Translations under genes and position numbers: made by a program
Shown here: positions 1 to 39,530 of the stretch, in pieces
How positions within the stretch are numbered: the stretch's first letter is position 1
Layout: every line of letters begins with the position of its first letter
Notes under the pieces: generated by a model
Databases searched by the model: none
Seen by the model: only the letters and a program-made list of their open reading frames with translations
What the model was told of the DNA's origin: nothing
DNA from: Moniliella sp. 'wahieum'
Lineage: Eukaryota > Basidiomycota > Moniliellomycetes > Moniliellales > Moniliellaceae
Assembly: GCA_003971905.1 (NCBI GenBank)
Contig: RSEE01000107.1
Coordinates: 1 to 64,000, forward strand
Length of the DNA: 64,000 nt
Direction of reading: 5' to 3'

Positions 1-2100
1 TGATAGGAATCTTAATCACCTGTCACGTATCCCCCATAGCGGACTAGTGGGACCAAGGGTTCCGGTTACCGGCCTTACGAGAACGGCTTGAGTCTGACGC
101 CCCCCCCCCTCTTACCCCTGCGTCCTTGTCTCAGCTGACCAGGTCCTTTCGGGTGCCACGGTGGGGCTGTTTGGTAGACACTAGCATGCTGCTCTTTTTA
201 TGGCAAAAAGAAAGCATCATATGGACACCTCCCCGTGTGCCCTGTAGGCTTGTGGCTTATTTGGATGCCATTCATAGTCCAGCGTGCTCCCCCGGTAACG
301 TATTCGTGTTGTTGGTCTCAGATCTCACCATCCTCTCGCGTTCGGTAGCGCGTTCGTCCCTCCCAATTGGACAGAGGGGCAGGGTTCGTGTTCAGGACCG
401 CTGCCTGCCATCATATATTACGCGTTACGCGTTACGCCCGAGAAGCACAAAGAGGGTCCGAGAGAGAGGAGAGTGCTTGAGGAAGGTTCATGTGGAAGAG
501 GAGGATTCAATAGTCAATAGTCAATGTTTTCGTGTCCTTCGAAACCAGTGCGCCGTGTACTTCGTATCCTCGTACTGGCATACCATGTAGCCGCGCGACC
601 AACGCCGCTCCTCTATTATCTCCCCTCGAGTCCCCCGTGCATAGGTATTGACAAACCCGAGAAACGAGAGGATCGATGGAGCAACACGCGGAGCAGGAGG
701 GCTCGAATAGGTGTACCACATACCCTGGATTGGAGTCGAGCCGAGTGAGAGGGTTCAAGATAGAGGGGAGGAACGGAAACGGGAACAGAAACAGGAACAG
801 GAACACTGTACATGCGTACCGCCAACGCATCGAAGGGAAAAAATCAATGTCAATGTGAGCGTGCAGAGATTCGGACAAACGGGTGTGCAGGTGGATTAAA
901 CAGGATGAGATTGAGATTGATGAAGCCACACCAACACGAGAGAGAGAGGGTTCAAGTGTACACAAACTCATTCACCAGCTCACCAGCTCACCAGCTCACC
1001 AATGCAGCTCACCCGCAGAAAACGCACCCCAGCAACAAAAGAGGAAGAGAACTGACGCTTGCACATAACCAAAACAAGAGTCGCCTTCTCTCTATCCTCC
1101 GCTGTGCTCCGCTGTGCTCTCCGGTACTCTCCGGTACACTGCTGTCCCTTTTGAGTGTCGGTCCTCGTCCCTGCCTGCAATTGCGTTCTGGTCTTACGCC
1201 GACCTTTCACCCAAGCCCAAGCCCACGCCCACGCGACGCGACCACCCCCCGCCCCCACCGACGTGGTAAGGACCACAACGGTGTATCGGACGAGGCTCGC
1301 TCCACACGCCCCGCACCAGCACCAGCACCAGCATCCGCATCCGCATCCGCTCCCGCACTCGCTTCCCCAGCGCAGATCCCCACCGGGTCCGAAAACGACG
1401 ACGACAGCGTCGAAACCGATGACGAACCTACACGCACAGTCCGCGCCCCCCTCGACCTGGACCTAAAGCCGATGGCCCATCGGTCCCAGGTGGATCAGTT
1501 AGGTTGCTCGGGTGCGAACGTGAGGTGGGCGAGGGACTGGTCGTGTCGTGCACAAGTGCATTGGCCGTGGGTGTACCCGCTCCCAGACTGGGACTTTGGT
1601 CCTGGTGGTTGTGGTTGTGTGGCAGGAAGCGGTAGCCATCGGCCGGAAGAGTGGGCCAAGAAGAACGACTAACGTTGGTGGCTGTGATAGCTGTGGCGGC
1701 GGCACTCTTGCTCCCAAGAAGAGACAGCGGACTTAGCGAGGGAAAGGCGGTAAGCGTAGTGTCCGACGGGAGTGGAGGGGCAGCGGGACACGTCATCGGA
1801 CCAGAGTACCGGTCCCCTAACAACAACCTTCCCGTAGTACCGGCGGGACCAACGACGAATAAGGCATCCTCCACGCCCCCCCGGACGAGGCACGATCGTC
1901 TTCCGTACTCAACTCGAGCACCTCTTGCTCCGACGTACACTCCCCTCGCTTTGGCCGGGGTGGGACGAGGCCTAGTGCTGTGGTTTAGTTGAGGCCCCGT
2001 GGACGTCGTAGGATCGCACTCGCTGCCAGTCGCCTCGGAGGCTGATGGTACGGGTACTGGTGTCGGTGCTGGTACGGATGCTGGTGCGGGTGCTGGTGCG
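1..2100. other. left-edge spacer, no supported gene
   Basis: Several open frames exist here but all are low in complexity: purine tracts around 765-810, a CAGCTCAC 8-bp repeat at 974-1000, and CCAGCA/CCGCAT repeats near 1315-1350. None shows a recognisable domain or a consistent frame. The stretch 1430-2100 could hold an extension or 3' UTR of the minus-strand gene that stops at 2101. No RNA gene seen. Confidence 0.4.
418..437. repeat. palindromic heptamer array (ACGCGT+T)
   Basis: The hexanucleotide palindrome ACGCGT occurs twice with a one-base T spacer, and a third partial copy follows. It is one of many 7-bp arrays in this window built as palindrome plus one base. Confidence 0.8.
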
Positions 2101-3927
2101 TTAGAATCCGTCGAGAGAAACGGGGCGAGAGAGCCAGTGGCGATCGAAGAACGCATTGTCGAGGGTCGATGCGATCCATCCGAAAGACCGCGCGGGCGCC
2201 AGGTACCCACCGAGGTACGCGATCGCGTCAGCCGACGCAGCTGGTACAACGACCCTGAGAGAAGACGCGCCGTGTCCGAGGCCCCATTCGCCTCCTCCCT
2301 CGACTGCCGTGGTGGCGTGGCCGATGGTGGCGTAGCCGGTGGTGGCGGGAGGGCTGGGAGGCGGACACGCTTTGGGTGTGCAAGGCGTTCCTGGGTTGGC
2401 CATGTTGGTCCCAGCCGGAGGCGAAGTGGACAGGTCAGCACCGGATGAACTTTCTGCACCGCGTGGACGTACGCCCAGGCGTACAGAGAGCGTGCGGGAC
2501 ACAGAGCGGAACCGGTTCAGGGAGGTGAGGGGCATGCGGATGGGCGTGCTACGAGCCGGCTCGGTCGAGGGAGAGAGACCCGGAGAAGGGGTACTTGGTA
2601 CCGGCAGACCGGAAGCCATTACAGGTTCAGGCACAGGATTCGTAGTGAGAGAAAGGTGCGTTTCGGCACCGAAAAGCCGACGCCGACGGAACGGAGTGGT
2701 CCTCCCGTGTCCATGGGACAGGTGTTGGGTGAGACTATGTTTGAGTTTGAGCGGGGCAACGGGTCTTCTTCGACCTGGTCGAGGAACGGCATGGGAGGCA
2801 TGAGAAGATGAACGGACCAAGAACGATCCGGTTCCCGTTACAAAAGGAACTTTACTTGACGACGACGACGCCCTCTCTCCTAACCGCGCAATAAAAGGCG
2901 CAGAATGGTGAGAGGACGGATTCCAGTTCCAGCCGCGCTCGACAAAGTAGGCCACTGCCTGAGCATGGGCAATCTCAGCCGCTAAAGCATCTTCACTGTT
3001 CCCATCGGGGACGCTATGGGACCCACCCAAATCATTGGTACCCTCCTGCTCCTCCCATTCTTCCGGCCCAGCGGCCCACGACGACGACCGGTTCCCCTCT
3101 TCGTCCTCCCCAGCCCAGGGGGGGTCGGATGCGTGCATCAGGTCCGATTCGAGCCTCGGCTCATCGTCCTCGCCACCCGACACCAACGTTGAGGAGGGCC
3201 TGTCAAACAAAGACGAAGACTCTCCTGAGAACGTCCGTGGGTGCTCCTCGAGGGGTGTGGTGTTACTTTGCCCACAATCGTCGGGGCTGCTGGTCCTACT
3301 CAGGGGAAGAGGGAGCGAGGTAATCAAGTGTTCGGGGTGGGTGGTACTGCTGGGGGGGACAGAGTAGCGACACAATGAGCGTGATGATGGTGCTCCTCAC
3401 CAAGAGAGCAGGTGTGTGATCCGGATTCGCTTTTTCTTGCAAGGGTGGGGGTGGGCGTAAGACGAGCGAGACTCATGCTGGAGAGGGCGCGTTCAGACGG
3501 ACGTTCGTCAAAGGAGACGAATTGCCAGTTGATGGGAGACTCGTGCTCCGCTACTGCTGTGCTGGGTGCCGGCTGGCTTTGGTGGGTGTCCGGGCGACGA
3601 GGAGGGTCGCTGTGCTGCTGCAACGAGGCTGCATGCTGAGATGAAGCAAGGACAGCGGGTGGAGAGGCAGAAGGAGAGGGCAGCGAATGCAGGGAGCGGA
3701 GACGCGGGGTGTGGGTGGGGTGTGCTTGTACTGCGGTCTGAAGGGGAGGGAGGGAGGGTGCGGCTGGGGGGCCGTTTGGTGGGTACGGGCTTGCGGACGG
3801 GGGCGGGGATGGGCATGGTGTGGTGTGGTGGTGGGGGTGACGTTGCGGGTGAGGTGGTGGGAGGGCGCGCCGATGGGGGGGTGACGCTGGGCGACGCATC
3901 CAACGGCTGTCTGCTGGTGTCGGACAT
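2101..3927 (-). CDS. Ser/Pro-rich hypothetical protein
   Basis: I do not recognise this protein. The start chosen is the ATG at 3927 (MSDTSRQPLDASP...), and the frame that ends at 2101 closes with ...DRHWLSRPVSLDGF. The N-terminal third is Pro/Ser-rich and probably disordered. A middle part reads SPINWQFVSFDERPSERALS. An acidic, Trp-containing stretch follows (near 3000-3200), including AEIAHAQAVAYFVERGWNWN. The C-terminal segment, near 2101-2230, is more ordered (AYLGGYLAPARSFGWIAS). The coding signal moves between frames near 3650 and 3370, which I attribute to single-base indels rather than introns. A T/A-rich TATATATT sits about 90 bp upstream at 4020. Low complexity limits certainty about the exact span. 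Confidence 0.5.
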
Positions 3928-4016
3928 GTGGGGCGGCGGGCATCGGACATGGGTGGCAGCCTGAGGCCATCGCGCCGCGGTCTGTCGGCTGTGCGATCAG
4001 AGAAGCGCAAGGAGGG

Positions 4017-4029
4017 CGCGTATATATTC
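4017..4029 (-). promoter_or_regulatory. possible TATA element
   Basis: A TATATATT-containing stretch lies about 90-100 bp upstream of the minus-strand ATG at 3927, a plausible TATA position for that gene. Inference from position only. Confidence 0.3.
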
Positions 4030-4356
4030 GCAGGCTGCGACTGCCTAATCCGACCTAGCACCGCCGCACACCCGGAACCCCGCCGCACAACCGAACCCTC
4101 GCCCTCGCCCACCCACGCAGGCAGAGGCGCCGTGCCGCGTTGGCTGCCCAGACAGGTGCGCAGCAATTATAATACAACGTTGGCCCCCAAGTGCCATCGC
4201 ACCGGCTCTCACATCTCACCTATAGTAAGCTATTCTAGCACTACTCCCCGTCTCTGGCTTCGTCATCTTTCGCCCTCTTTCCCCTCTCTCTCTAAGGCCC
4301 AATCACGGCTGGGACGACAAGGGCACCGCGCCACTCCTTTTTGAGCCCCCGACCTT

Positions 4357-4374
4357 CACATGTCACATGTCACA
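4357..4374. repeat. palindromic heptamer array (ACATGT+C)
   Basis: Two ACATGT palindromes are separated by a single C, with a third partial unit. Confidence 0.8.
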
Positions 4375-4878
4375 CTGCAACCTACCACACCAGAATAGGG
4401 CACCACAACCGCAACTGTCCTTCGAGAGGATAAATGAGAGGGAACGAAATGTTACAATGCGAGCGCGCGTACCGAATCTTCGCTTACGTGACAGGGCGAG
4501 ATGGAAACGGTTGTCGCTACACCCCCAAAACGCATCCACATGTGGGGATCAAAAAAGGGGAGAGATGATACATTACCCGCTGCATGCGTTCACAGTCAGT
4601 ACAAATGGCTGAGGACCGCTGAATCCTGTTGCAGGCAGCGAGGTTGGATCGCACACATGGCATCCCGGGCGCTGTTAACGGTCGCTGGACCTTGTGCCAC
4701 GTTCCAAACGATGGTGGTGAGCAAGGGCGAATGGAGAACAGGAAACGGAGCTTCTAACCCCGCATGCGTTGAAATCGAAACAATTCTAAATGTAAGCAGC
4801 AGCGTCATACGTCACAGATCACCCATCGTCATAAAGCTGATGCACTGATGGCACTGTTGGCTGCTGCCTGCTGATGGC

Positions 4879-4908
4879 ATGCATGATGCATGATGCATGA
4901 TGCATGAT
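4879..4908. repeat. palindromic heptamer array (ATGCAT+G)
   Basis: Four consecutive ATGCAT palindromes are each followed by one G, a clean 7-bp array about 180 bp upstream of the trehalose synthase ATG. Confidence 0.9.
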
Positions 4909-5088
4909 GGCCTATCGCATCGATGTTCCCAGGGGTTACCGGTTAGGCCGCTTAGGCTGGTCTATCGTGCATCTTGCATCTAGTATCCCCATCCCCCATC
5001 TCCCGCTTCCATCGGCTGCGCCTCCTCCTTCTCTTCCTCTTCTTTTTCCTCCTCCTCCCCCTCTCCCGTCCCCTCCCCCCCCCCCAGC

Positions 5089-7069
5089 ATGGTACCCAGT
5101 GGGATCCCCCCCGCGGACCAGGAGCCGTTCAGCCCGCTCCCCCCCCCCGCTGGGCACGCGTCCGGTGCCCAGCAACCCACTTGCTGACTCACCCGCCTCA
5201 GCAAGCCAGTACGACACGCCTCGTCTCTCCTCCTCGCCCTCGGCCAGCGGCTTTGCCACGGCGGCTGCCTCCCGACACCACTCGAACAAGCCCTCGCTCT
5301 TGGGCTTCACCCAGGCCGACTTGGAGAACGACGTGCACGTCTCTACCTCGCAGCAATGGCCCGGCCATGACCCCGACCCTGACGCTGCCCTGCGTTCAGG
5401 ACACGTCCGCTTCCGCCCCTGGTCCGGCCCCTGCCGCCGCGACGCAGTCCCGCCTCTTGGTCGTGTCCAACCGTCTGCCAGTGACCATCAAGCGCGATCC
5501 TACCTCGGAGGGCGGATACACATTTTCTGCTTCTTCCGGAGGCTTGGTATCTGCCCTGGCTGGCGTTAAGAAGACCACTCCCTTCATCTGGTTTGGCTGG
5601 CCGGGATTGTCGGTCCCCCCTTCCGATCGGGCCTATGTGGAAGAAAAGTTACGGTCCGAGTACAGTTGCGAACCGGTCTGGTTGCCAGACGATGTGGCAG
5701 ATGGCCATTACAATGGGTTTTCCAACTCGGTCTTGTGGCCTCTGTGCCACTACCGCCCCGGTGAAATGAACTTTACCGAGGCGTCTTGGTTGGCTTACCG
5801 ACTGGCCAACTTGATGTTTGCCCAGCGTGTTCGGTCGGTCGCTCGGCCGGGCGATATGGTGTGGGTACAGGATTACCATCTGATGCTGCTCCCGCTCTTG
5901 CTGCGCGTACTGGTCGAGGGCAGCGGACAACAAGGACGTACCTCCCACCTCGGCTTGGAACATATTCGTCGTGGTCTCAACACCAACCTGTGCGTCGCCA
6001 CTGCTCTCGAAGAAGGGGTCGTGCCGCGCGTAGCGGACGATCCGTTGGAACAGGACGATCACCACCCTTTTTTCCCCCGTGGTGCGATCAAGATTGGGTT
6101 TTTCCTCCACACCCCGTTCCCGTCCAGCGAGATTTATCGGATTCTTCCGGTGCGGCGTGAGATTTTGGTGGGCATTCTGCATGCCGACTTGATTGGCTTT
6201 CACACCTACGACTATGCCCGCCACTTTCTCGCCTCTTGCACGCGCATTTTGAACAAAAAGGTCAGCCCCAATGGGTTGGCGTTCGAAGGACGTTATGTGC
6301 ATGTGGGCGCGTACCCGATTGGGATTGAACCCCAGTCGTTTTACCAAGCTTTGAAACGCGATCGTGTGCAACGACGCATCGCAGAGCTCAAAGCCCATTT
6401 CCACCAGAAAAAAATCATCATTGGTGTGGACCGGTTGGACTACATCAAGGGCGTACCCCAAAAAATGTTGGGCTTCGAGACGTTTTGCAACAGCACCGGG
6501 AATGGGAGGAAGCTTGTGTGCTCATCCAGGTCGCTGTGCCGTCGCGGCAAGATGTGGAGGAGTACCAGTCGTTGCGCTGCTTGGTCAATGAGATGGTAGG
6601 CAGGATCAATTCCGAGTATGGCTCGGCACTGCACATGCCCATCCACTTTCTCCATCGATCCGTGGACTTTGATGAACTGGTGGCTCTCTATGCTGCGTCA
6701 GACGCTTGCTTGGTCACCTCGACCCGGGACGGAATGAACCTCGTGTCGTACGAGTACATTGCATGCCAAGCCGAACACAAGGGCGTGATGATCCTCTCGG
6801 AATTTGCTGGCGCAGCCCAGTCGCTCAATGGAAGCTTGATCATCAACCCGTGGGACAAACAAGCAGTGGCCGATGCTATTGTCGAGGCACTCACCATGCC
6901 GCTCGAAACTCGCACGAAGAATGTAGACCAGCTACGCGCGTTTGTCGATAAACACACCGCCGCTTGGTGGGGCAATTCCTTTGTGCGCGACTTGCAGCGC
7001 ATCCGGGTAAGCAAGCTCCGCGCCTCCTCGCCCTTTGTCGGACGGCGGTCGAGCATAGCGCCACCATAG
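5089..7069 (+). CDS. TPS1: trehalose-6-phosphate synthase (GT20)
   Basis: Makes trehalose-6-phosphate from UDP-glucose and glucose-6-phosphate, the first step of trehalose synthesis, in the cytosol. GT20 landmarks appear in order: RLLVVSNRLPVTIKRD, GGLVSAL, WFGWPG, NGFSNSVLWPLCHY, WVQDYHLMLLP, FFLHTPFPSSEIYRILPVR, GAYPIGIEP, GVDRLDYIKG, VAVPSRQDVEEYQ, TSTRDGMNLVSYEY and LSEFAGAAQSLNGSL. The start chosen is the ATG at 5089, after a pyrimidine-CAG tract. A disordered Ser-rich N-terminus of about 110 residues precedes the catalytic domain. The frame shifts at the C-runs near 5140-5150, again near 5380, and near 6486, where one T is missing from a T-run. Compared with yeast Tps1, about 50 extra residues lie between WVQDYHLMLLP and FFLHTPFP. 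The stop at 7069 is followed within ten bases by a satellite. The identity is certain; the N-terminus is less so. Confidence 0.95.
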
Positions 7070-7076
7070 TAACAAC

Positions 7077-7175
7077 AAGTACCAAGTACCAAGGACCAAG
7101 GACCAAGGACCAAGGACCAAGGACCAAGGACCAAGGACCAAGGACCAAGGACCAAGGACCAAGGACCAAGGACCA
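7077..7175. repeat. 7-bp satellite (GGACCAA)n
   Basis: About thirteen nearly perfect copies of the heptamer GGACCAA start directly after the TPS1 stop codon, so they are probably transcribed in its 3' UTR. The first two units carry a T variant (GTACCAA). The reverse complement of this heptamer is the first third of the 21-bp repeat at 11161-11250. Confidence 0.95.
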
Positions 7176-8114
7176 GATGGAACACGAACTCGTTCCCCCG
7201 CTCCGAAGGCGGGGAGGAGGGGACGCGTGAGCAGTTACTTTACTTCCGTATGCAATCCCCCATTGTCGATGCACTCTACGATGGAAGCCGGCTCCGACAG
7301 AGATGGCAGTTGCTGGGGGCGGGTAAGAGAGTTGGATGAGCGCGAGCAGCAGTCACTGTGACATGTGCATGTGACATGTGACTTGCCATCAGTACTCAGT
7401 TTCACCTGCCGCGGTGGACGTGGGCCGTGGATAGAAGACATCACCCGTACTAACCGAAACTAAGCCCCACCTGCAGAGGGGCAGTGATCCAGGCGTGTGG
7501 ATAACTTGCTGGGAGTGGATACTGTCCCCGTGGCACCACATCGATCATCACCTATCGCCCATCACTAGCATGCATGCATCACTTGCACCACTGCTCACCG
7601 GTCACCGGTCACCGGTCACCCCTGCTCTTCATACTCTCTTGCTCCGTCACCGGGTCACCGCGTCAGTCCCCAATCATCAATCACCGGCCGCCGCCACTCG
7701 TCTCCACCCTTGTCCACCTCTGCCGCCACCGTCCCAGCGTTCTCTGCCGTCGTCCATCGTCCACCCGTGGAGACTTTGGGATGGAGCCATGGTGCGATGG
7801 CACGCACGCGGCAGCAGCAGCCGCACGAGGACGTTATGCGCGGAGAGTGTTCTCCTTGTTTCCACACGGCCCCTCCCTTGTCTAGCCTCGCAAAGAGCGA
7901 CGCCACCCGCTTCTACGACGACAGTTTTGTCTTATAGACTCTCGACGGCAGCTCTCCCCTCTTTGGGCACCGGGCTTCGTCGGCCTTCCTTCGTGCTTTT
8001 TTTGGCTCTTCTGGTCTGCTGCCACTCCTCCTACTACTACTGCTACCACTACCCTCCCCGCCCTCCGCATCCTTTCTTGCACGCGCTCGGCTCTCCCCAC
8101 CGTGGAACAACATC
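7176..8114. other. spacer between TPS1 and the YTH gene
   Basis: No gene supported. It contains ACATGTG repeats at 7361-7381 and a perfect ACCGGTC array at 7596-7620, then pyrimidine-rich sequence likely to be promoter and 5' UTR of the YTH gene. Confidence 0.4.
7596..7620. repeat. palindromic heptamer array (ACCGGT+C)
   Basis: Three perfect ACCGGT palindromes are each followed by one C. A related array with a G spacer lies at 38290-38307. Confidence 0.9.
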
Positions 8115-10738: not shown

Positions 10739-11160
10739 CTTTCCACGGGGATGCCAAGCTGCGTGGCCAGTACGAGCTGGACCCAGCCCGCATATGAGAC
10801 TGCCAACAATGTTGCGGTCAAGATTGAGGGGGACCGCTGAGGCAAATACTGAGCCCCGTTTTCCGCGCCTCGTCATCGTCGTCGTCTTTTATCAGCGAAA
10901 ACCGAACCTCGCCCCTCACTCTCGTAGCCCGACAAATTTGCTTTGTTTTGCTTTCGAGGAACTTGGCTGTGCCAGGACAACGGGAACGGTATCCACACCC
11001 CGGCACTGAAGAGCGCGGGCGCGGACAGGTGAATTTATCGATTTCTATATCCATCTACTATATCTCGGGATGGGGCCGTATTAGCCAGGTCGTCCACTAC
11101 TTGTGCACTTGTATGCATGGAGACGGGTCCAGCGCGGTTGGATTCAGCCTTCCCACCTCG

Positions 11161-11250
11161 TTGGTCCTTTGTCCTTCGTCGTTGGTCCTTTGTCCTTCGT
11201 CGTTGGTCCTTTGTCCTTCGTCGTTGGTCCTTTGTCCTTCGTCGTTGGTC
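11161..11250. repeat. 21-bp minisatellite
   Basis: Four full copies plus six bases of a 21-bp unit made of three heptamers: TTGGTCC, TTTGTCC and TTCGTCG. The first is the exact reverse complement of the heptamer after TPS1. It lies between the convergent YTH and chitin deacetylase genes. Confidence 0.95.
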
Positions 11251-13316: not shown

Positions 13317-15315
13317 GGTGACAAGAGGCAGGCCGAAGCGAGGGTGGGCGTGGGGGGTAGGGGGGGGGGGGGGGTGGACGAGGAGAGGCAGGCGAGGGTG
13401 CTGTCTGGGGCCAAGCGCTAATCCAAGAAGAGACCGGCGGCCGTCTCAGCGGGCCGAACGCCGCTGGCCACACTGGCGCCGCGCCGTGGGGGGACGATCG
13501 GCCGGCGGGGGCCCGCACAGCCGCAATGCAGGTACCGGCCGTTGCTGGCCCCGTGCGTGCCTGTCCGCCATTGACATATTGACATGTGACAGGTGCTGCG
13601 GCGTGCTGCGGTGTGGTGCTGCGCGGTGCCGTACGACATGGCGTGCGGGCGGGGGTGGGGCGACAGACTGGGCACAGCGAACCAGTGCGTGTGCCTGCGT
13701 GAGCTCGCCCTCGAGGCACTCAACGGCTCAACGTCAACTTCAACGTGCGTCAACGTTCAACAAAGACGAACGGCCGAGCCACGCCAGGCTCCCGCCGTGT
13801 GCTGAGCTCTGGATGCGAAGGCACTAGGCAGCGCGCTGCAGTGCCCCGCCAGCGCCAGGACCACCCACTGGCCTTCCACGACGCAGCTTCGTTCCTGCCC
13901 CCAGCTGTTGCCCTGCCCCGCTGGCCCCACGCCTTACGGAGGCACGAGGGTGGCAGGCAGCCTGCCCAGTGCCGGCCCCCGGGCTTCCGCCCTGGGGCCT
14001 GGTGCGCCCTGGTGGGGCTGCCAGCGGCTGCTGGCCCCTGCCTGCCCATCCACAACCTCCATCCTCAAACCGCGATCATCGATCACCCACCTCTCACCCA
14101 TGCTCTACTCCGCACACAGCGATCCACTGCATTGCGGGCGGCTGGGCCCGTCCCCACAGGCCTGTGTCTGTCTCAGTCCCAGCAGATCCCGGCCGCGGCA
14201 CCGCCCCCCCGCCTGCACCCGCGCGCTCCTCAGCCGGAGCGCTCACCTCGCGTCTCAGATGCTTCGCATGCCGCACTAGCCCGCACCCGCGCTCACCTTT
14301 GGAACCGACCGTTTGACGTTTAACGTTTGACGTGCTTTAACGTTGTGCAAACTCGAATCTTCTCCTGCGCCCTATCACGCGTCACGGTGTCGTATGCCTG
14401 TCGTTAACACGTTCGGATCAGCGCAAGGAGCATCTCGAGTGGCTGCTCCAACCGCAAGATGGACTTGAAAGTTGTTTGCAGTCGGTCGTCGATGACGGTG
14501 AGCTGGAGGGGCAGCTTGAGTGTCCCTTCAAGAAAACAGAAGCAACACAGTTGCTAAGTATACACCCCAATAGTTCTTCCGTGCGTGTGATGGAGCCGCA
14601 ACGCGAGCGCGTGAGCGCGTTAGCAGGGATGAACGCGAACGAGATGATCTCTCGAAAGAACGATAATTCCGATAATTCTACGCCCACTGAGTATGAGTGT
14701 ACTGAGTACTGTAGTCTCAGTTCAGAGTCCACCTCACAACCTCATCACTGCGCCTCATCGCGTGGAGTGGGACAGGATCGATGTCAGCGATCTCATTAGC
14801 GTCGTGTTATGCGGTCAGATATGCACCTGAGTACACCGAGTGGTACACTGAAGAACGAACTGGGTGATGCGCGAGGATCCTTTGAACGTTTTGAACCAAC
14901 ACACCGGCACCTTCTAATTTCAATCCTACAAAAAGGAAGGGGGGGCAGGACTGAAATTAGTCAAACCTGAGGCCAGAGGTTGTATAGCTCAACCACAACT
15001 ACTTTGTCACAGGGCGCGCGGAGAGAAGAGGAGAGACGGATGCGCAGGTGGAATCGCGGGGTGGCACGTGACCTGCCGGGCGACATGCGATAGTCGATAG
15101 GCGACGCCGCCTGCCAGCGTGGCACGCAGACGCAATGAAATGTTGCATTTCCACCTGGTCCGGCCTGGGAGGGGGCAGTGTGACGTGGTGGCGGCGAGAT
15201 GCGGCGCACAGATCAAGGCCGCACCAGGGCAGTGTGGCTCCACCGTGGTTGCCGGGCCGGGCGCAGGCGCAAGAAGAACGGGCCAACGGGAGACGAACGC
15301 CTTCTTCTCACCACC
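13317..15315. other. 2-kb divergent promoter region
   Basis: No gene supported between the chitin deacetylase and the C9-methyltransferase starts. Open frames here are GC-rich and lack domains. AACGTT-type motifs cluster at 13720-13765 and 14310-14345. Confidence 0.4.
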
Positions 15316-19595: not shown

Positions 19596-19708
19596 ACGGG
19601 GCGGAGAGTCAGCGGTGAGGTGGAGGTACGGGAGGTACCTGGGGGATCTGCGGGGGCCGCAGGGTCGCAACCTACAGGACAGCCAGCCGACGACGGCTAA
19701 ACGTTCGT

Positions 19709-19727
19709 TGAACGTTGAACGTTGAAC
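19709..19727. repeat. palindromic heptamer array (AACGTT+G)
   Basis: Two AACGTT palindromes are spaced by one G, with flanking partial units. About 115 bp upstream of the sphingoid-base kinase start. Confidence 0.8.
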
Positions 19728-19880
19728 TGAACGTTGACGCAGACGATCGATCTCGATCATTATGCGTTAATGTCATGATGCATGAACATGGATGAACATG
19801 GATTACTGAACGATTGGTTGGACGTTGGTTGCGTTGAAGAGGGCAGATGACAGGGTCATTATATGTCACCGTGCCGGGGA

Positions 19881-19911
19881 CACGTGACACGTGACATGTG
19901 ACATGTGACAG
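19881..19911. repeat. palindromic heptamer array (CACGTG+A passing into CATGTG+A)
   Basis: Two CACGTG units, each followed by A, pass directly into two CATGTG+A units. The latter read as ACATGT+G in the neighbouring register. The 7-bp phase is unbroken although the core base changes. Confidence 0.9.
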
Positions 19912-20344
19912 GCGAGGGAAAGAGTTGCGAAGAGGCGGCAGGCGCTGCGCATTTCGAGAATTTCCAACCGGTGTGGTCGATGATCGATGACTTTCATGAC
20001 GAGACTCTACTAGTGACTGCGCTGCCATGGCGAAGGCTTCGCGCTTAGCCTAAGCGCCTAAGCTTACAAGTCAAGCCTGATATTCGCTTGACAAGAGGGA
20101 CGAGGAGCTCAGCTGAGCTCAGCGCGGCTGAGGCTGAGCTCAGGCTGAGGCCCAGGCACGGCACGCTCAGGCGGGGCGGTGGAACCTCGCTTGTATATTC
20201 AGCTTGAGAACTTGTTGAGCACTTTTGAGCACGAGGGCTGGCCTCAGCGCCTCATCCGCGCTTCAGCGCCTCAGCAGAACCCGTGTAGTGTGGCGCGCCA
20301 TGCGCGTGATTCACGCTATGGTGGATGATATGGATGAGATCGCT

Positions 20345-20366
20345 AATCGATAATCGATAATCGATA
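20345..20366. repeat. palindromic heptamer array (ATCGAT+A)
   Basis: Three perfect ATCGAT palindromes are each followed by one A. Confidence 0.9.
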
Positions 20367-20409
20367 ACCCCGATTGAGCACTGGGCAGAAGCGAAGACGA
20401 GGTTCAACT

Positions 20410-20434
20410 TGAACGTTCAACGTTCAACGTTCAA
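20410..20434. repeat. palindromic heptamer array (AACGTT+C)
   Basis: Three perfect AACGTT palindromes are each followed by one C. Degenerate copies continue to about 20455. Confidence 0.9.
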
Positions 20435-21697
20435 CTTGAACCGTTCAACGTTCGTAGTCGCACGAGGTCATCAGCCATCAGCCGCTGATGGCTCGCTGAT
20501 GGCTCAGCGAGGCCATCGAGTCCAGCCTTGTCCAGCGAGCCCAGAGGGCAGAGCGCCTGAGCGCTGAATATACGCCGCTCGCACCCTTCCGCACCCCTCA
20601 GGCCCCACGAAGCTTGAAGGGCATGTGGCACATGGGGCACTCGCACCAACGGCATACCATGCTCCTCCTGACTCCTCCGCCTTCGGCCGGCCTCATGACA
20701 AAGATGTTCATAACGTTTTCATATGGTCAAAGGCGAAAAAGGAACGAACGCAATGGTGCCACCACGTAAGGTCGGAGCTCAGCCAGGTTCTGCGTTTACG
20801 CGACAGCAACCAACGGTCCCCTGTTGCACGTTTTCTTTTGCGCAGCGCCCTCAGCCTTCAGCGCTTCAGCATCCCCTGGTTGACGGGCGCCATCAGCGAA
20901 AAAGAGCATCATACCACTGTTTTGAATCCCAGAATCAGTGTTGGAATAGCCCTTTGACCACTAAGTACTAATCATTAATCATCCTACCCTTGACCACACG
21001 ACTGTGAAAAAGGGATCTCGTTTGTGTTCGCACTAATATGCACTGCTTACTGGGCCGACTACAAGCAATCGCTTCCACAAAAGAATTTGTCAGGTTTGCG
21101 TTTTCACCGTTCATCCACAACAACCTTTCCATATTAGGTACGGCATTGAAAAGGGAGGTAACAAAGAGCCAAATCGGGATTCCATAGGGCGTACTATTGG
21201 CTATCTGAAAAGAGGTGGGGGCTGCATGTGAGCCTGTTTTAAGAGGTTTGATGTTCTAAGGCGTTGAGAATTGATGACATTGATAGGTTCATTGACATCG
21301 TTCATCGTTCATCGTTCATCGTTCTTGACGCTCGTCAGGTGGGCTTTTGGCAATTAAAAGGGCCACTAGGGCGGAGCTTACAGGATGCCTCATGAGATGT
21401 GTGGGTGTGGGCTCAGCGGAATCAGCGCTCAGAACGGAACAGAACATTCAAATGGTGGATGAATATTGAGTAGCACGGTGCAAAGGCCGACGGATATTGA
21501 AGCTTGAAGGGCTAAGAAAGTTAGAAGGAGGCCCAAGACACGGGATGGGGGATAATCGGAGCAATAAAAGAAAGTGGGGGCATCAGGAAAACATCGATCG
21601 TAAAGGATCGTAAAAGGTAGTGTCGAAGGAATAAATGCGAACGAAGGGCACAAGGGTCCCCTTATTTGGTGGAGGGAGAGAGTCACGAAAACACGTC

Positions 21698-23432: not shown

Positions 23433-25897
23433 TTTGGTAGTGAGGAAGAGTAAGAGGGGTAGAGTTTAAGGGTCGACGAGGTAGCGAAAGCGAAAGCGAA
23501 ACGAACTGCGGCGGCAGCAACGACAGCGACGGCGGTAGCGGCAGCGTCAACGTGTTCTGCAGAGGTCGCTTGATGACGAAAAAAAGTGGTGCAGCAAGGG
23601 CGGGATGAAGGAGAGTGGGGGCGAGATGGGCGATGGCTTATGAGGCCGGAGGCCTGAGGAATGCTTAATGAGAAATGTTGAACGCGCGCCAATGGTTTCG
23701 CAGACAGGAGAGGAGTGGGTCTGGTGGCAAGCCTTTTGCGCCTACCAGAAGCCATCAACGTTTAACTAACCATGCGCTCCACTGGTCTCCAGCCAGAGAG
23801 GGAGGACAGGACCCTGCTCCGGGAGACGCCTTGAGGCGCAAAGCTTGAAGCTTGAACCTTAGTTTGACGCTGACGTGTGAATGTGACGCCGCCCGCCGCT
23901 GCCCTGGATGGTGTCCAGCCCACCGGATTTTTCTCTGCAGCTGTGGCCCCGTGGCGCGTGGCTGGCCCCTGGGCACCAGTGTGCGGGACACAGGGCTAGT
24001 GCTAATCCCTCGAGCTTTTTTCCGGTGGCTTCCTTAGGAATTCCCCGTGACTGCTCCGTGCGCAATGGAGGGCTTATCAGTTGGACAATCGGGACAATGC
24101 GCTGACGCCCAGATAGGAATCGGCCACTGGCGCACTGGCGCTGCTTTCGGAACCCGTTGGGCCCGCCGCTCTTCTCCACTTTTCACGTCAGTCGTACATA
24201 CTGGCGGCCGTTTCTAGGTACCACCCAGTACGCCCAAACGTAAGATCTAACAGCCCCTCAGGCTCCACCCACCACAAACGTTGCCTTGGCCGGAGAACTG
24301 ACACGTGACGCGTGACGTGAAATTGGAATACGTTCTTGTACTGCCCTGCCCCCTCTTTCCCCTCGACCTTCGCCTCACGCTAGCTTCACCCACATTCCCT
24401 CTTCTTCCCTCTCGTGTTCATCATGGCGCGCCCATGTTACCAAAGAGCCGCTGCAGGGTGTTGAACGTTGACACTTCGACAACGCCCGCCCGTGCCCAGC
24501 CAATCGGGGGCTATGCCAAGCTACGTCCCATGTCCACGCGTCGCGCCAACGGTCAACCAACTTAACCACTGTCCAGTTGAGGATGAGAGCTTGTTCTGCG
24601 CCGCCACTCTATTCTGGACAACTCGAGCTGGCGCGACCACATCTTTTTTTGGATAAGTCTTGGCGCAAGGGACCAGCGCCCTATCGCCACAGCAGCGCAC
24701 CAATCCTCTAGCGTACTAGCAAAACGCGACTAGCAACGCCGTGACCGCTCCTATTATCGGGTTACCGTTGGCAGGCGTCGGCGCGTATCTGAGATCTCCG
24801 CTCTCCACATCTCTCAGCCACGCCATCGATCAAAAGACTATTGATCGACTATGGACTATCGGGGATCCTGGTAAAGCTTGATAAGAAAAGGCTGGCGTGA
24901 TTATGGTTGCTACTCTGGCACTCGTACTCCGTACTGGTGTTACATGTTACTCCACTTGGCGGGCTTGAGCTGTGGGGATTCAATTAATACTCAGTACTCC
25001 AGTACTCACGTACTCACGGTTGATGATTCGCTGCAACGAGAGACATGATAGTATGGGCGGCTTACCAGGGCATACCGCCCCCTCCCCACACCTCTATCGC
25101 GTTCAACGTTCACCGGTTCACCGTAGAGCAGATGCCCCTGAGCGGGTTTGGCAGCCCCTGTAACACGTAACACAACGTAACATACATACCATGTCGCAAC
25201 ACGCCACGCCTAATCCAGTACAAAGCTAATAGCCAACCCGATGGATCGAGCGGACAATGCAGCATTATGCATTACGTGCATTACGAGGACGCGGAGATGC
25301 TGCAGATAGATAATAGTTGCTACTTCGGCCCCACACGGAACTAAAACTATAGTCATCTCGCTCTCGCAGAAGAAGCAAGCGTTATGCAGTCTACTGGTGT
25401 GAGACCTGAGATCCAGTACTCAATTGTTGTAGTCTGTTTCCCCCCGTAACATCTAACAGATCGGGGCAGAGAGGCACACCTGCTGAGACCTAGGGCGCAG
25501 TACACTGCAACGGAGGCACAGATACAAGGAAATCCGGACCTGTAGAGAGCTCTCGGTACAGTTCTACAATAGGGCCGAGGAGAAATCTCAGATTGAATAC
25601 TTGAGAGCTGCACATACACCAGTTGTCAAGTTGTCAGTTGATTCGGGTTTGGCTATATTATGCCTAAGGCTAAGTTCATGCAGGTTATGGGAAGACCATC
25701 TCAGCCACCCCCTATCTATATACTCCGCTACAGACAATGTGCCAACGACTCGTAGAATAGATGCATAGATCAATGAGAAGGCGAAACGGATGAGAGCAAA
25801 AGACTTAACTGGGCACGGCGAGAGAGACGAAGAGAATCAATGTCATAGAAGCCATAGGTGCGAGGGGGCGGGAACTCGTTTCGTTCGCTAGCGCAAC
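23433..25897. other. spacer upstream of the ammonium transporter
   Basis: No gene supported. GCGAAA repeats lie near 23490-23515. AAGCTTG (23841-23854) and CACGTGA/CGCGTGA (24302-24320) heptamers and AGTACT clusters (24993-25010) are present. The right part lies beyond the stop of the next minus-strand gene. Confidence 0.4.
23841..23854. repeat. palindromic heptamer pair (AAGCTT+G)
   Basis: Two AAGCTT palindromes are each followed by one G. The same design recurs at 37605-37623. Confidence 0.75.
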
Positions 25898-30387: not shown

Positions 30388-30553
30388 TCACCCAAAGGGG
30401 GAACGAACCCGAGTGAGGCGTTTCGGTCGGCTCTACGGACATGTGGCAAACGTGCAAATTGCGTCCTCCCCAAACCTCCTCCAAACTAAGTCTAGCGCAA
30501 CTCTCCATTCGATTCAGCGGCGGCATTTCGGGCTACAGCGGACGCACAGCCGC

Positions 30554-33981: not shown

Positions 33982-34609
33982 CATTGGCCATGCGAGAGCC
34001 TTGTTACTACGACATTCGACTCCCGGGACCGCTCATGCCGCACTACTAAGCCTTCTTTGGCCTCTAAGGCATCCATGGCCACCATTTCTACCTACATTTT
34101 GCTGCGATAACGTTTACCGTGTTATACTGCCCCGTTCCCCTTTCCTCGTTTGCTTTTCATTGGAGACCCCCCTTCACCTCTGTTGTTATCAGTTACCGTC
34201 TGCTTCGTTCTGTTGTATCGACACCGCACTCCAATACATTTGTGTGCCCCGGCCACCTCTATGCTTGCGGTTCTGTATATGCAATCATGTCGAGCTATGT
34301 GCGAACGTGGCTCGGGGATCTATCTCAAATGGAGGAGCTCCGGCAACTGCGGTAGAAGGGCCCAGGATGAATACGAGTTTGCATCCTGGGCTCTTATGGA
34401 CATTTTCTCTTCACTGTCGGGGCGGCAATGATTCGCATGGCTGCGGCCTACTCTCATTATTGAGGAGTAGATGTACACTGTTGTCCAACTTGTGCGCAGC
34501 ATCGATGCCACAGAGTCAAAGAAAAGAACCTGCCAACATCGCTGCTGCTACTCACAGCTATCATTAACCACATTGCAAGCGAACGTGTGCCTTATTCGGA
34601 TTATTCACA
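33982..34609. other. convergent 3' spacer
   Basis: No gene or repeat family recognised between the two convergent stop codons. Probably both 3' UTRs. Confidence 0.4.
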
Positions 34610-36604
34610 TCATCTCGTGTTGTCGTCGAGGCTTGGCGTTATGAGTATGGCACATTCCTCCGCAGGAAATGAAGGCATCGAGTCGATTGGATCCACCATA
34701 CGGCTCGTTGGTGGATTGGGTGGAGGGTGAGCATCGACCTGCTCTAGGGGCATATATATGTCAAGTGTCCGTTCGGTGTCTGGCAGTAGGTCTTCAGGAA
34801 TAAAAGGATTTGGGTTCGGGGATGGGTGGCAAAGGGCAAGAGGAGGGAGGACCCGGGCATTTGGGGACGCTCCGCCTTCCAAACGTGGATGATCGTAAAA
34901 TGCTAACAGGGGGGTGAGGAACGAGAGTGGGGCGGTGTTGGGGCCCAGTGTAAGACGCGGACTGATGGGGGGCAGATTGGTAGGACAATCACGGTTTCGT
35001 TCTGGAACAGAAAAAGATGCTCGGGATGTAGGTGTAGGGAACATTTGCAGGTCGAAATCAAGAAGTAGAGAAGTGGAGGATCTTGGTGATCCTCCATCCA
35101 AGGTGGGCGGGGAAGAAAAACAGGTATCCGCTGATGGTGCGTTCGCGGTAACGGAAGGAGCAACTTGCTATTCTCCTGTTGGCTGGTCCCACTTTGTTTC
35201 CCATGCCTTTGAAAGAAGTGTCGGTCACAGTCGTGCTGCAATGAAGTCTCTTTCCGCCCTCTACCTCTGCGGGAGTTCCACGCGGAGGCTTGCTTGGTAT
35301 CTTGTCGTCCCAATGGACGCCAATCCTCGCTCGGAAAACTTCCACTGAATCGTGCATGGAACTCGAACCCCCATCATCAGGGACAAGCGCGAATAGCTCT
35401 GTCCTTGGAGAAGAGCGCGTATCACTGGATACTGTGGATATTTCGGATTCGAGGTCCTGCGGTGGAAGAACAGCGGCAATATCGAGGTGGGTGACTCGTG
35501 AAAGGGCCATTGATGCCGCGCTTCTTCCGGCCCGTGTTTTGATGGACTTGAATTGGAGCAAGCGGGTGGGGAGAAGGGCAATGCGCTTTTTCTTTTCCCT
35601 TTGGGCGGGGCAGGGATCAAATAGACCTCCTCCATCGTTTTAGAAAGGTTCGTGGCCGCCGACGGAGCCCAAGCGGTTTGATGGGAGCGGTTTGACTCGC
35701 CAGTAAGTGTCGTTTCCGCTTCAACAACCGGTGGTGCTGTTGTAGACTCTGCCTCATTGGACATGCTTACACGAGAGCGAAAGGGCAAGTTGCGTTTGAA
35801 TCCGAACGAATGCCTAGGCCCTTGAGCTACGCCCAATGTGGTACCAGCATCCATCGACAGGGATCTCGTTTCGCTCCGGTGTTGTGACATAGACATGCGA
35901 GAGAATATATTCGGTCTGGACGAAAAGAGAGGAGTCGAGGAGGAGGTAGACATGATCTTGCGCTCTCCCGGCCGTTTCTTCTCACACTCCTTCTCCGAAA
36001 ATGTCACTGCATCCAGTGAATGAGCACGATGAAAAGAGGACTTTGAACGCTGTTCACCAGCAGGGGTCCACGCATTGCTCAGATTGGTCGGGGACGTCGG
36101 TCCCGAATCAGGACCAGAGACGATAATTGCCGGTTTCCACCATCGCCGAGAAGACCAGGGCTTTGCCTTTATGGGGGAATCAGGAGCGTTTTCCGATGTC
36201 GCAACGCCCTCTCTTTCCCCGGCCGAGTCCATCGAGGTCCGAGGCACTTCCCGACCTTTTCTGCTGGACATTCTCGATCGTAACTCATCCATCCAGCCCC
36301 CGCCGTGTGCAGATGAAGTGGTGGGTGATTGATCGGTGGCATTGGCACTCATTGATGTTTTAGATGTGGTTGGGAACCTCAGGTCGCTGATGGACTTGCG
36401 AGATCGAGAATGGTCTCGACTCGCTTGCCAATGAGACTTATTCGCAAGCGTAGGGGTTCGTTGGCCATTTTGGGATTCTTCTCCACATAGCTGTGCCGAC
36501 CGTTTCTTCATTATTGAAGGCCTCCATCCCGATATCGACTTCCTTCTTCCCCTTGTGTTTTCGAACTGGGTCTCAACACTCTGCTGTACTACAGGTTCGT
36601 CCAT
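34610..36604 (-). CDS. unknown Ser-rich basic protein
   Basis: Not recognised. The start at 36604 encodes MDEPVVQQSVETQFEN. A long uninterrupted stretch of about 350 codons is Ser/Arg-rich with many RKS/RRSS-like patches (GRRKSISGWRPS, SRKSISDLRFP, HSLDAVTFSEKE) that would suit kinase sites. Near 35620 the text runs SKTMEEVYLIPAPPKGKRKS. A frame change near 35560 continues as LQFKSIKTRAGRSAASMAL and DLESEISTVSSDTRSSPRTE. A second change near 35110 gives a Pro-rich end with DGGSPRSSTSLLLDFDLQM and FIPEDLLPDTERTLDIYMP, stopping at 34610. About 660 residues, likely disordered. The internal homogeneity argues that the two changes are indels, not separate genes. Confidence 0.65.
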
Positions 36605-37604
36605 AGTGCTTCAGCAGAGGCCATCAATGCTTGAACCTGAGAGAAATATGTTAATGGCGGCCGAAAAGCAGCAATGATGGGGCTTTCTCACTCAATATTC
36701 GTCGTAATCCCGATTGACAACTTCGATTGATCAGGCTGCCTTTCTTCGCGGAAGTGGAAACGAAGTCAGGAGCTTTCGCCGATGGCAAAGGTGTAATCCG
36801 TCGTGTAGCTTTGTTCCAGTTCGCTTGTGGTTAAAGGAGTGGTGGTGGTCGGATAACAAGAGGGGGAAAAGAGGGGATGGTGCCACGTAATTCCTAAGCA
36901 AAGGAGTGAACGACGACCGACCAATGAGATGCCTTGCTATAGTTACTCCTCATATACCCACATTGATTGATGACCATCATCGATGATGATTGATGAAATT
37001 GACGGAACAAAAACCGGCCGGCCCCAATATCACATTGCATCTCAGGGATCTCAGGGCCATCACAAGTCCTAATCATCGGCCATCTCACATGTCACATCCG
37101 ATCGATATCGCCCGATACCGGTCACCGAGGTCATCGAGGTCATCAGTGCTCAGTACCAGTGCGCTGCTCAGTACTCAGTATTACTCAGTGCCAGACCATC
37201 TGTCCCACACACTCATGCTGCATCTTTCTTTGTGCCTTGAAGCTTAGAGCTTGACAGCCTTGGCTTGCTTGCAGTGAAGCTGGGGAAGCTGGAAGCGAAG
37301 AGACTCCCAGCTCTTCCCGTCCGCTCCCCCGTGTATGTGGCCACAGCAGGCTCCCCACAAAAATTCCCCAACAAAGTGTATATATATGGTAATGGGGACA
37401 TGCTTTTTGGGGTACCAAAAGTGGTTCTCTCTCTGATGTTCATGTTTTTATTGGCGTACAGCGGCTATACAACACGTGAAGTAACAAAACGTTGAACCCG
37501 CTGCCATCACTAGGATTGTCTGTGCCCTTGGGCAAAGGAGATACCTGAGCGCATCAGCATTTCCGTATTTGTGCCTGGCGCTTCGCCATCTTGGAGACCC
37601 TTAG

Positions 37605-37623
37605 GCTTGAAGCTTGAAGCTTC
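37605..37623. repeat. palindromic heptamer array (AAGCTT+G)
   Basis: Two AAGCTT palindromes are separated by one G, with a partial unit before them. GCGCTGAGGCTCAGCGC, a longer inverted repeat, follows at once. Confidence 0.8.
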
Positions 37624-38202
37624 AGCGCTGAGGCTCAGCGCTACGACCCATGTGTGATGTACATGAGGCACAGGATGCCGGTAAGCACTTGAGGCCATTT
37701 CAGGGAAGCCTCAGTACCTCAGGGCCCGTTTGAGTGCCTGGAGCCATCATCCATTACGTGCTTCCGTCTGTCTCTGTACGGTGTGGTATACAGATAGATA
37801 CCATGACTTGTCGAAATGGGACCAAGGGGGGGCAGACACATAGTATGCTGGTCACACAATCATTAGCCACTGTCAAGTGGGAAGGGGATATGATATGTGT
37901 AGGACGTCGTATATAGCAATTAGAGCACATTCTACACAGGGGCCTCTCCCTGAACGTTGAACTCTGAGAGCTTAACCTTCTTCTTCCAGCTTCAAGCTTC
38001 GAGAGCTTATAACCTTCTGCTTCCTACAGCTTTTCAAGTTTCCTAACTTCAGCTTCAAGTCCGCCCCAATAGAAACGTATCCTACACGATAGTACTATAC
38101 AGACGTCAATATGCCACCCGTCACACTCACAAGTCACCTACTGCACCACTCGTTTTGATGTGAGATGTGAGATCTGAGAGAGTGCTCGCGCTCCAGGCGA
38201 CT

Positions 38203-38245
38203 GAGTACACCGAGTACACTGAGTACACTGAGTACACTGAGTACT
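38203..38245. repeat. 9-bp tandem repeat (GAGTACACT)n
   Basis: About four copies of GAGTACACT (one with a CC variant), ending in GAGTACTGAG. This is one of the few arrays here with a period other than seven. Confidence 0.85.
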
Positions 38246-38289
38246 GAGTTTCAGTATTGTGAGTACCTGAGTATAATACACTGAGTACT

Positions 38290-38307
38290 GACCGGTGACC
38301 GGTGACC
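38290..38307. repeat. palindromic heptamer array (ACCGGT+G)
   Basis: Two ACCGGT palindromes are separated by one G, and a partial third follows. Confidence 0.8.
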
Positions 38308-39417
38308 GACGAATCTCTGCAGGCACTACTTTCTCACATTGTGTATTGCTGGTTCCACATGTCACACCGTGCATCACCGGTCACCATTTGTATCGTTCTT
38401 AATTGTTCGGCATCCCACTGTCATAGTTTGGCTGATCTCGCTCCCATTTCCAATTTCTTCGTCTTGAGCGTCTCGCTCCTTCCCTGTTCCTTCCACTTCG
38501 CACCATGTCCTCTGTTCTTGCTTCTTCCCCACGAACGATTGCTACACCCCTTGGCCTAGTCCGATCCTGGTCTCCCTCGCCTTAGCCCCGACTGTGACAC
38601 CCACGGCGCCTGTTTACGTCGAGCACAGAGTAGCGAGTATCTGAGGACTGACTAGTGACTGACAAGGCGCACGCTTCTCTGTGCGCATTCTGAGGCGTGT
38701 TGGACCTGATCACCCTTTGGCGTCTCCCATATATTCGTATCACTCCATGAAGACTCTGTGCTCCGTGCTCTCCGCCGCTTTAGAGCGCCCAACGTACTCG
38801 ACGCCACAGCCTTTTCAGTATACTCATCGGCATGTAAGGACATATCTTGCACGGAAACGTCAGTGAGGCCGAGGCCTGACGGCGAGATCCTATGCACTAT
38901 GCCTGATTCCTTCGGCCGGACATTCGAGGACTTGATAATGTGTTGCCAAACTGTGCCTTCGTGTGTATCACGGCGCGGACCCCTGCTCGATGGGGCCGCT
39001 GCTGTGGCAAACCCTCGACAAACGAACCCATGCTGAGCGCTCAACTGGGCATACCCTAAAAAAGCCCAACGTCACGCGTCATTAATCATTATGGATGGTG
39101 TCTGCAACGTGCCTCTATCACGTGCGCGCCCTTCCTGCTATTCCGTGGCGTTACTCATCCTACGTTTCCCCCATTCTTCTCATTCCGTCCTTAAACAACA
39201 CGATTGAGTAATGGCATGTACACTCCGTTGCGTGCAAATGGATCATTTTCCCTTTCCATTACAGCCCCTTGGGAATTGAGCTTCCGGATCTGGGGTCTTA
39301 CGCCCCCGGTCCATGCGCTATACGCGTTACATGTTGCAGGCTCAATGAACCGTGACGCGTGACTAGTGACTTTCGGTATTGAATGTGGTCTATCCTTTTC
39401 CAAAACGGAGAGAACCC

Positions 39418-39434
39418 CTAAGGCCTAAGGCCTA
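39418..39434. repeat. palindromic heptamer pair (AGGCCT+A)
   Basis: Two AGGCCT palindromes are each followed by one A. Confidence 0.75.
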
Positions 39435-39494
39435 AACCGTGGGTCGGACTCCGGAAACAGTCTGGTCAACAGGTCTGGCCCCACTCCGAGATCA

Positions 39495-39530
39495 GATCGA
39501 TCATCGATCACTAGTCACTAGTCCTAGTCA
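39495..39530. repeat. composite palindromic heptamer array
   Basis: Two ATCGAT+C units run straight into two ACTAGT+C units, so the palindrome sequence changes while the 7-bp phase and the C spacer are kept. Confidence 0.85.

Follow-up and report, generated by a model that had tools for sequence, protein, structure and literature searches.

Insertion of 7 bp at TNA Sites

In the genome of Moniliella sp. 'wahieum' (assembly GCA_003971905.1, 69.5 Mb in total), exactly 7 bp have been inserted in a sequence-directed manner at TNA sites, and filled and empty states of these sites segregate between haplotypes. The finding stems from positions 1 to 64,000 of contig 107 (RSEE01000107.1), in the following referred to as the window, where a sequence-only reading had pointed to tandem 7-bp units, each made up of a 6-bp palindrome plus one base. 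This observation is real and genome-wide, while the rule behind it is tighter than a palindrome with an additional base. With a and b denoting the dinucleotides flanking a TNA triplet and a* and b* their reverse complements, a-TNA-b becomes a-TNA-(a*-a)-TNA-b or, as mirror product, a-TNA-(b-b*)-TNA-b; we have high confidence in this grammar.

Besides the window, another 20 stretches of this genome, 10 kb each, were analyzed (200-kb sample). As 19 of these were picked around matches of one ATGCATG array, whole-genome counts weigh more than those from the 200 kb. Rule and junction counts refer to 264 kb, arm/loop and inverted-repeat scans to 324 kb. At the window, the assembly contains two haplotypes, with the other allele located in reversed order on contig 63 (112001-182000). 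In 20 collinear blocks comprising 53,974 aligned bases, with parts of both sequences lying beyond these blocks, substitutions amount to 3.4%, and several kilobase-size insertions distinguish the two alleles. Two more allelic pairs were found among the sampled stretches; due to the three pairs, some sites are counted twice. Protein structure entries agree with a fungal origin of the sequence: one open frame matches trehalose-phosphate synthases in the PDB, with 8fhw, a Cryptococcus entry, at the top, and another matches ammonium transporters, MEP2 being the best hit.

Excess of Palindromic Arrays and the TNA Rule

Identical 6-bp palindromes recur at a distance of 7 bp in 20 places of the window (other lags from 6 to 20: 0 to 3, lag 14: 6) and in 133 places of the 200-kb sample (other lags from 6 to 24: 0 to 10, lag 14: 70, lag 21: 33). 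Multiples aside, lag 7 alone shows a clear excess, which the sequence-only reading had named as a sign of support, and all thirteen arrays listed there were found within 5 bp of where it had placed them. Only its apparent exception, CACGTG, is not a separate palindrome type but the edge of a TGA-CATG array. Compared to a second-order Markov control, period-7 runs of at least 13 bp are strongly enriched in the window (87 versus 11.9), and even more so the runs with dyad, that is, odd-palindrome symmetry (37 versus 1.15). Corresponding values for the 200-kb sample are 340 versus 42.6 for all and 155 versus 3.6 for symmetric runs. The expectation that the peak would be limited to palindromic units was hence borne out in part: symmetric runs are enriched about 43-fold, but non-symmetric ones are enriched as well (185 versus 39), by 3.5- to 7-fold depending on the class. 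Among periods 5, 6, 8 and 9, the most symmetric units number 3, 8, 0 and 1 in 200 kb, compared to 155 at period 7, and the longest runs reach 57 bp, corresponding to about 8 units. In the whole genome, with overlaps counted, TGACCGGTGACCGG gives 564 matches versus 10 for the reversed string, which is a 7-bp palindromic array of the same symmetry with AGT replacing TGA, while a non-palindromic heptamer of equal base make-up gives 2 matches and its reverse 1.

The units can be written as TNA-XYY'X'-TNA with identical N on either side or, equivalently, as odd palindromes NN-TNA-NN with complementary arms. T and A are found beside the center in 306 of 336 symmetric runs, and the center itself is G or C in 250 of these 306, so that TCA and TGA account for about four in five. 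Between cores 7 bp apart, a palindromic 4-mer is present in 167/267 TGA..TGA, 182/312 TCA..TCA, 28/53 TTA..TTA and 28/59 TAA..TAA pairs, thus in 47 to 63% of identical TNA pairs, whereas all triplet pairs together give 6.0%. With pairs represented fewer than 40 times set aside, the highest value other than for identical TNA is 31% for CGA..TGA (18/58), and the opposed pair TGA..TCA shows 23% (10/43). Likewise, of 683 TNAXY repeats with a spacer of 2 bp, 515 have the reverse complement as spacer, as against fractions of 0.01 to 0.10 for five other outer pairs. In a scan of both strands excluding units of period 1 to 3, the combination of a 2-bp arm and a 3-nt loop was found 968 times (44 expected). 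Arm 3 with loop 1 (728 versus 41) and arm 1 with loop 5 (1153 versus 53) largely recount the same units, and the 9-bp form with arm 2 and loop 5 is strong for its size (82 versus 1.3 expected). Of the 16 possible 4-bp palindromes, 15 are used in runs and TATA occurs in a haplotype insertion at 25227, leaving no readable site besides TNA. Accordingly, from the proposal that a 6+1 architecture rather than a sequence is conserved, the 7-bp dyad pitch with a freely chosen palindrome can be retained, but the conserved elements are the TNA core and the inverted copy of its 2-nt neighbor.

The following arrays and single insertions in the window illustrate the rule (the other haplotype is mentioned where it differs).

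418 to 437: TTACG-CG-TTACG-CG-TTACG array (TTA core, CGCG), 2.9 units
4356 to 4374: TCA-CATG array, 2.7 units; other haplotype one unit shorter
4879 to 4909: CATGATG array (TGA-TGCA), 4.4 units; other haplotype one unit shorter
4934 to 4945: single 7-bp insertion GGTTA-CC-GGTTA, CC being the inverted copy of the flank GG; other haplotype with GGTTA once
7595 to 7620: TCA-CCGG array, 3.7 units
13750 to 13761: single insertion TCAAC-GT-TCAAC; absent from other haplotype
19706 to 19727: TGA-ACGT array, 3.1 units
19879 to 19910: TGA-CATG array with the variant CACG in two units
20344 to 20367: TAA-TCGA array, 3.4 units; haplotypes differ by 14 bp (two units)
20412 to 20453: TCA-ACGT arrays
20960 to 20971: single insertion ACTAA-GT-ACTAA; absent from other haplotype
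23841 to 23856: TGA-AGCT array, 2.3 units
37605 to 37622: TGA-AGCT array, 2.6 units
38280 to 38308: mosaic AC-TGA-GTAC-TGA-CCGG-TGA-CCGG-TGA-CC; the left unit copies the left flank AC, the right units copy the right flank CC
38374 to 38385: single insertion TCACC-GG-TCACC; absent from other haplotype
38649 to 38660: single insertion TGACT-AG-TGACT; absent from other haplotype
39351 to 39371: mosaic CG-TGA-CGCG-TGA-CTAG-TGA-CT
39417 to 39435: TAA-GGCC array, 2.7 units
39496 to 39523: mosaic with TCA core, TCGA followed by CTAG

Haplotype Differences, Single Units and Array Growth

Differences between haplotypes demonstrate that the process acts or has acted recently, which can be stated with high confidence. 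In the three allelic pairs, 7 bp is the commonest indel length above 3 bp (40 cases; indels of 4, 6 and 8 bp number 35, 13 and 10). Seventeen of the 40 7-bp indels obey the TNA rule and two more obey it with another core. Microhomology amounts to exactly 5 bp in 14 of the 40 and to at least 7 bp in 7; elsewhere, 3-bp indels show a 5-bp microhomology three times, and indels of any other length between 4 and 12 bp no more than once per length. These values bear on ordinary replication slippage of heptanucleotide microsatellites, possibly favored by hairpin-forming units, as the origin of the arrays. Slippage could explain runs of up to 57 bp, array lengths differing between haplotypes and the enrichment of non-symmetric 7-bp runs. 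However, gain of a whole unit from an existing repeat is not reflected in the microhomology, and at 4934, 13750, 20960 and 38374 single units face just one TNA and no repeat in the other haplotype. Moreover, slippage cannot write an inverted 2-nt copy, and it would not predict that the non-palindromic control heptamer is nearly absent from the genome or that the peak of symmetric units is missing at neighboring periods. Slippage is hence refuted as the origin and we consider a major role of it improbable, while it is likely a secondary force on finished arrays.

Of the 70 units in the window, 36 are identical at the aligned place in the other haplotype and are therefore not artefacts. That the arrays arose in assembly or library preparation is also hard to reconcile with the abundance of TGACCGGTGACCGG, which, among the matches listed, occurs on contigs 1-9, and can for practical purposes be dismissed.

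The direction of change can be read in a family of 240-bp repeats. One unit (L018_1449) occupies a single copy, nine others, some being alleles of one another, have the empty site, and CATCATG is present in the contig 63 copy alone out of 8 copies reaching that place. A second unit in stretch L018 is without counterpart in the other copies, one of which carries an unrelated 7-bp gain, but those of the empty copies that were displayed lack the TNA. Derived deletions were not found at the five sites with at least three copies, two of these sites being unreadable. Based on the two polarized cases and the grammar, we have fairly high confidence in insertion rather than deletion. The 240-bp sequence itself is a dispersed repeat with TG...CA ends, present in the window at 59036-59277, 46968-47204 and 41651-41850, and with 596 first-look candidates genome-wide, 40 of which were scored.

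In 140 of 170 unchained units, the predicted flank is present on one side or both (56 left only, 53 right only and 31 both), indicating that the unit is written from a flank. As most of them match one flank only (109 on one side), the starting site is not symmetric, which is also directly seen in the empty allele at window position 4934, reading GGTTAGG. Repeated rounds at one seed predict the order a-t-(a*-a-t)m-(b-b*-t)n-b, with t for the core. In 18 arrays with two different palindromes, both predicted flanks were found in 12, with one of these mosaics counted twice as alleles (L019/L027), one flank in 3 and neither in 3. Hence, arrays look as if extending outward from one seed TNA, with repeated rounds making tandem as well as mosaic arrays.

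Selection for arrays that bind a dimeric protein recognizing dyads every 7 bp would fit the fixed spacing and the location of 56 of the 61 TNA-symmetric runs in the window outside long open frames. As to the statement in the sequence-only reading that none of its arrays lies in a coding exon, judged here by open frames instead of gene models, frames of at least 200 codons contain 5 of these 61 runs versus 852 of 2703 TNA sites. Frameshifting insertions, however, would likewise give a low density in long open frames, and single as well as polymorphic copies obey the copying rule. Since the rule holds in single units, haplotype insertions and the order within mosaics, we regard it as a mutational signature and not as selected binding sites, the latter being very improbable. 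The dimeric protein considered in the sequence-only reading is accordingly not needed, as hardly any palindrome is left unused and the copying rule governs the junctions, while its other suggestion, a process imposing dyads at a fixed 7-bp pitch with the particular palindrome left free, proved right. The distribution of runs, only 3 of 61 being located in the part of the window from 42 to 64 kb that bears several dispersed repeats, would fit slow build-up in old non-coding DNA together with purging from genes, where a gain of 7 bp shifts the frame.

Junction Classes and Proposed Mechanism

Single-step events, counted without runs longer than 13 bp and, as in the arm/loop scan, without units of period 1 to 3, occur at 6.09 per 1000 TNA sites, compared to 0.57 for the next outer pair, CNA, and 0.03 for CNG. 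With zero, one or two G/C in the copied pair, rates are 6.03, 6.48 and 5.44 per 1000, thus without any rise, although individual dinucleotides differ (0 to 11 per 1000). At 98 single-event sites without neighboring TNA, T and A at positions -1 and +1 and a G/C center are the only clear preference. An extended consensus with A at -6 and T at +6 was rejected, as it disappeared in the 98 of 202 sites that remained after exclusion of those neighboring a TNA at 7 bp.

For like TNA triplets 3 to 15 bp apart, the states of both ends were scored, omitting 294 ambiguous sites that are mostly symmetric already. Predominant are junctions with a 2-nt inverted copy at one end and the other end short by 2 nt (78 and 82 for the two orientations versus 0.7 and 0.5 expected). 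Junctions with a 2-nt copy whose other end lacks 1 nt (18) or none (25) fit loops of 4 and 5 nt. Furthermore, there are 33 junctions with a 1-nt copy and the other end short by 2, and 25 plain 7-bp duplications versus 0.8 expected. The P1 and plain-duplication classes were rejected as large classes in their own right, being mostly array-derived with 5 and 17 representatives among 362 isolated pairs, and 3 of these 17 plain duplications come from one TCATCC repeat. A 2-nt copy at both ends was never found and inverted copies of any length at both ends only 6 times; this near-exclusive restriction to a single inverted copy per event fits one strand folding once.

The best explanation, which we judge about evenly balanced between right and wrong, is a sequence-directed 7-bp insertion at TNA by fold-back DNA synthesis, with repeated rounds building the arrays. 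In the course of gap filling, nick repair or lagging-strand synthesis, a strand with its 3' end just past a-TNA would leave the template and fold back, with TNA as three-base loop, and would then copy its own two bases a, yielding a*. Having rejoined the original template five bases back, where a begins, it would recopy a-TNA, and the looped-out 7 nt would be retained; the mirror product would represent the same event on the opposite strand. Finished arrays would then probably be lengthened or shortened by ordinary slippage. Fold-back explains the inverted copy, the recopying of 5 bp, the single copy per event, the mirror forms and loops of 3 and sometimes 4 to 5 nt, and our confidence in this step as mechanism is moderate. 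It does not account for the TNA requirement, the fixed length and the absence of a GC effect; hence, we infer a TNA-preferring nuclease, polymerase or paused enzyme that would determine where the 3' end lies and that the freed strand is 5 nt long.

Besides these three features, several observations weigh against the proposed explanation. As aligned, 21 of the 40 7-bp indels do not fit the rule, some of them appearing decayed or misaligned by eye, and 30 of the 170 unchained units match neither flank. That the rate does not rise with the GC content of the copied pair contradicts a hairpin set by stability, and hairpins driven by stem stability were rejected on this basis. Stem and loop sizes are nearly constant here, whereas they are variable in known fold-back events. 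Outside the rule are also the excess of non-symmetric 7-bp runs and that of adjacent TNA-TNA, with both ends short by 2 (212 versus 145 expected). Finally, a 36-bp insertion in the other haplotype (window 14686-14692) lies between two copies of ACTGAGT, a 7-bp TNA-centered palindrome. It sits among ACTGAGT repeats, where insertion and array rearrangement are not distinguishable.

The last case would suit a cut-and-paste transposon that duplicates 7 bp of target centered on TNA and leaves footprints on excision. Hairpinned flanks would be opened 2 nt off the tip, with one end keeping P nucleotides and the other trimmed by 2 nt, so that the junction table, including the plain duplications, equals the expectation for duplications with P nucleotides at one end. 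The symmetry of the core would be well accounted for, as T and A one base apart around a symmetric center resemble targets of DDE enzymes such as Tn10 transposase and retroviral integrase, and so would the rate being independent of the GC content of the copied pair. Independently processed hairpin ends, however, should often both keep a copy, in conflict with the junctions found, and beyond TNA and the G/C center the sites show no clear preference. Large insertions with a readable target duplication at 4 of 18 inspected breakpoints between the window and contig 63 have CCCAC, GTGAA, GCAG and AT, none of 7 bp or with TNA, the remaining breakpoints except the 36-bp case being unclear. In addition, the scan for elements bounded by exact 10-bp terminal inverted repeats identified 40 candidates; their flanking repeats measure 3 to 6 bp, never 7. 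Domain searches of the genome for Harbinger and MULE gave no match, while rve gave 148; those for hAT, KDZ and Plavaka gave no match either, but also none in control genomes. Altogether, we regard excision footprints as unlikely. Integration of long terminal repeat (LTR) elements was rejected as a source, as two LTR-like insertions carry 5-bp duplications (CCCAC and GTGAA), and we know of no excision of LTR elements. One of them, a solo-LTR-like insertion of 181 bp with TG...CA ends and the CCCAC duplication, is located at 38419-38599 and missing in the other haplotype, and a copy with 94.5% identity is found in stretch L023.

A bolder variant, in our view possible but rather doubtful, is a putative dedicated enzyme, either nuclease or polymerase and perhaps a tamed transposase, that acts at TNA and writes a 7-bp duplication-with-inversion genome-wide. 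If true, non-coding DNA would be steadily filled with self-complementary heptads by an insertion mutator with a fixed product, a mutational process unlike any known to us. Indels are usually attributed to slippage or to imprecise end joining, which yield products of many kinds, whereas here one fixed length and a copying rule are found. The process turns single sites into palindromes and tandem repeats and would shift frames in genes, and its grammar keeps a record of its own history. It may thus serve as a natural assay for local fold-back synthesis or offer a path to a new DNA enzyme.

Comparison with Known Systems

To our knowledge, fold-back template switching that is restricted to TNA and to a constant 2-3-2 geometry is without precedent, and no description of such a process was recognized in a literature search, most subscription journals being outside its reach. 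P nucleotides at V(D)J joints and excision footprints of hAT elements are short inverted end copies of typically 2 nt. Similar to these, a short inverted end copy is found here where duplicated ends join, but the 2-nt copy is never on both ends and neither a mobile element nor a recombination signal was recognized; the search for literature on P nucleotides and hAT footprints found nothing bearing on the case.

In rad27 yeast, the newly made strand folds onto itself, serves as its own template and then goes back, resulting in palindrome expansion and duplication. Template switches represent 21 of 455 changes there, and the folding described takes place where a palindrome or an imperfect inverted repeat already exists, as in the case of a 15-bp palindrome with an insertion of 66 bp (PMC5677150). 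In both cases, return upstream on the template would leave an inverted copy plus a short duplication as insertion. Different from the rad27 events as far as described there, the geometry is fixed here (2 copied, 3 in the loop, 5 recopied), TNA is required and no inverted repeat is needed. Near-palindromes that already exist are converted in quasipalindrome correction and by short template-switch mutations, where loops of 4 nt are enriched (PMC8794818); such mutations are also treated in PMC7202029 and PMC3820800. While local copying makes the sequence self-complementary there as well, in Moniliella the palindrome arises anew, the loop has 3 nt and stem strength is without effect. Heptameric short tandem repeats of bacteria are described as G-rich and able to form quadruplexes (PMC4692102); they share the 7-bp tandem form, but here many heptamers are found that have only the symmetry rule in common.

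In prokaryotic and viral loci with one CCGG array, no such grammar was found, as only 23 of 719 TNA....TNA pairs are palindromic when CCGG is dropped, compared to 320 of 540 by the same measure in the 200-kb sample. Arrays of TGACCGG are present in at least 7 contigs of the betaproteobacterial bin SG8_41 (L040, L042, L049, L092, L095, L097 and L108), where one heptamer is spread widely.

Other Repeats in the Window

A 7-bp array of a different kind is located at 7076-7175, consisting of about 12 to 14 non-palindromic CAAGGAC units and being 71 bp shorter in the other haplotype. At 20469-20505, two copies of CATCAGC are followed by two of CGCTGATGGCT, a longer fold-back-like structure of which 15 bp are missing in the other haplotype. 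A 21-bp unit is perfectly repeated in 4.4 copies at 11158-11250. At lag 18, the window has 47 recurrences of identical 4-bp palindromes (14 to 34 for other lags except 7), an excess not found in the other sampled stretches. Finally, five ACTGAGTAC units of 9 bp at 38200-38244 adjoin the mosaic array starting at 38280 and may be a related larger product.

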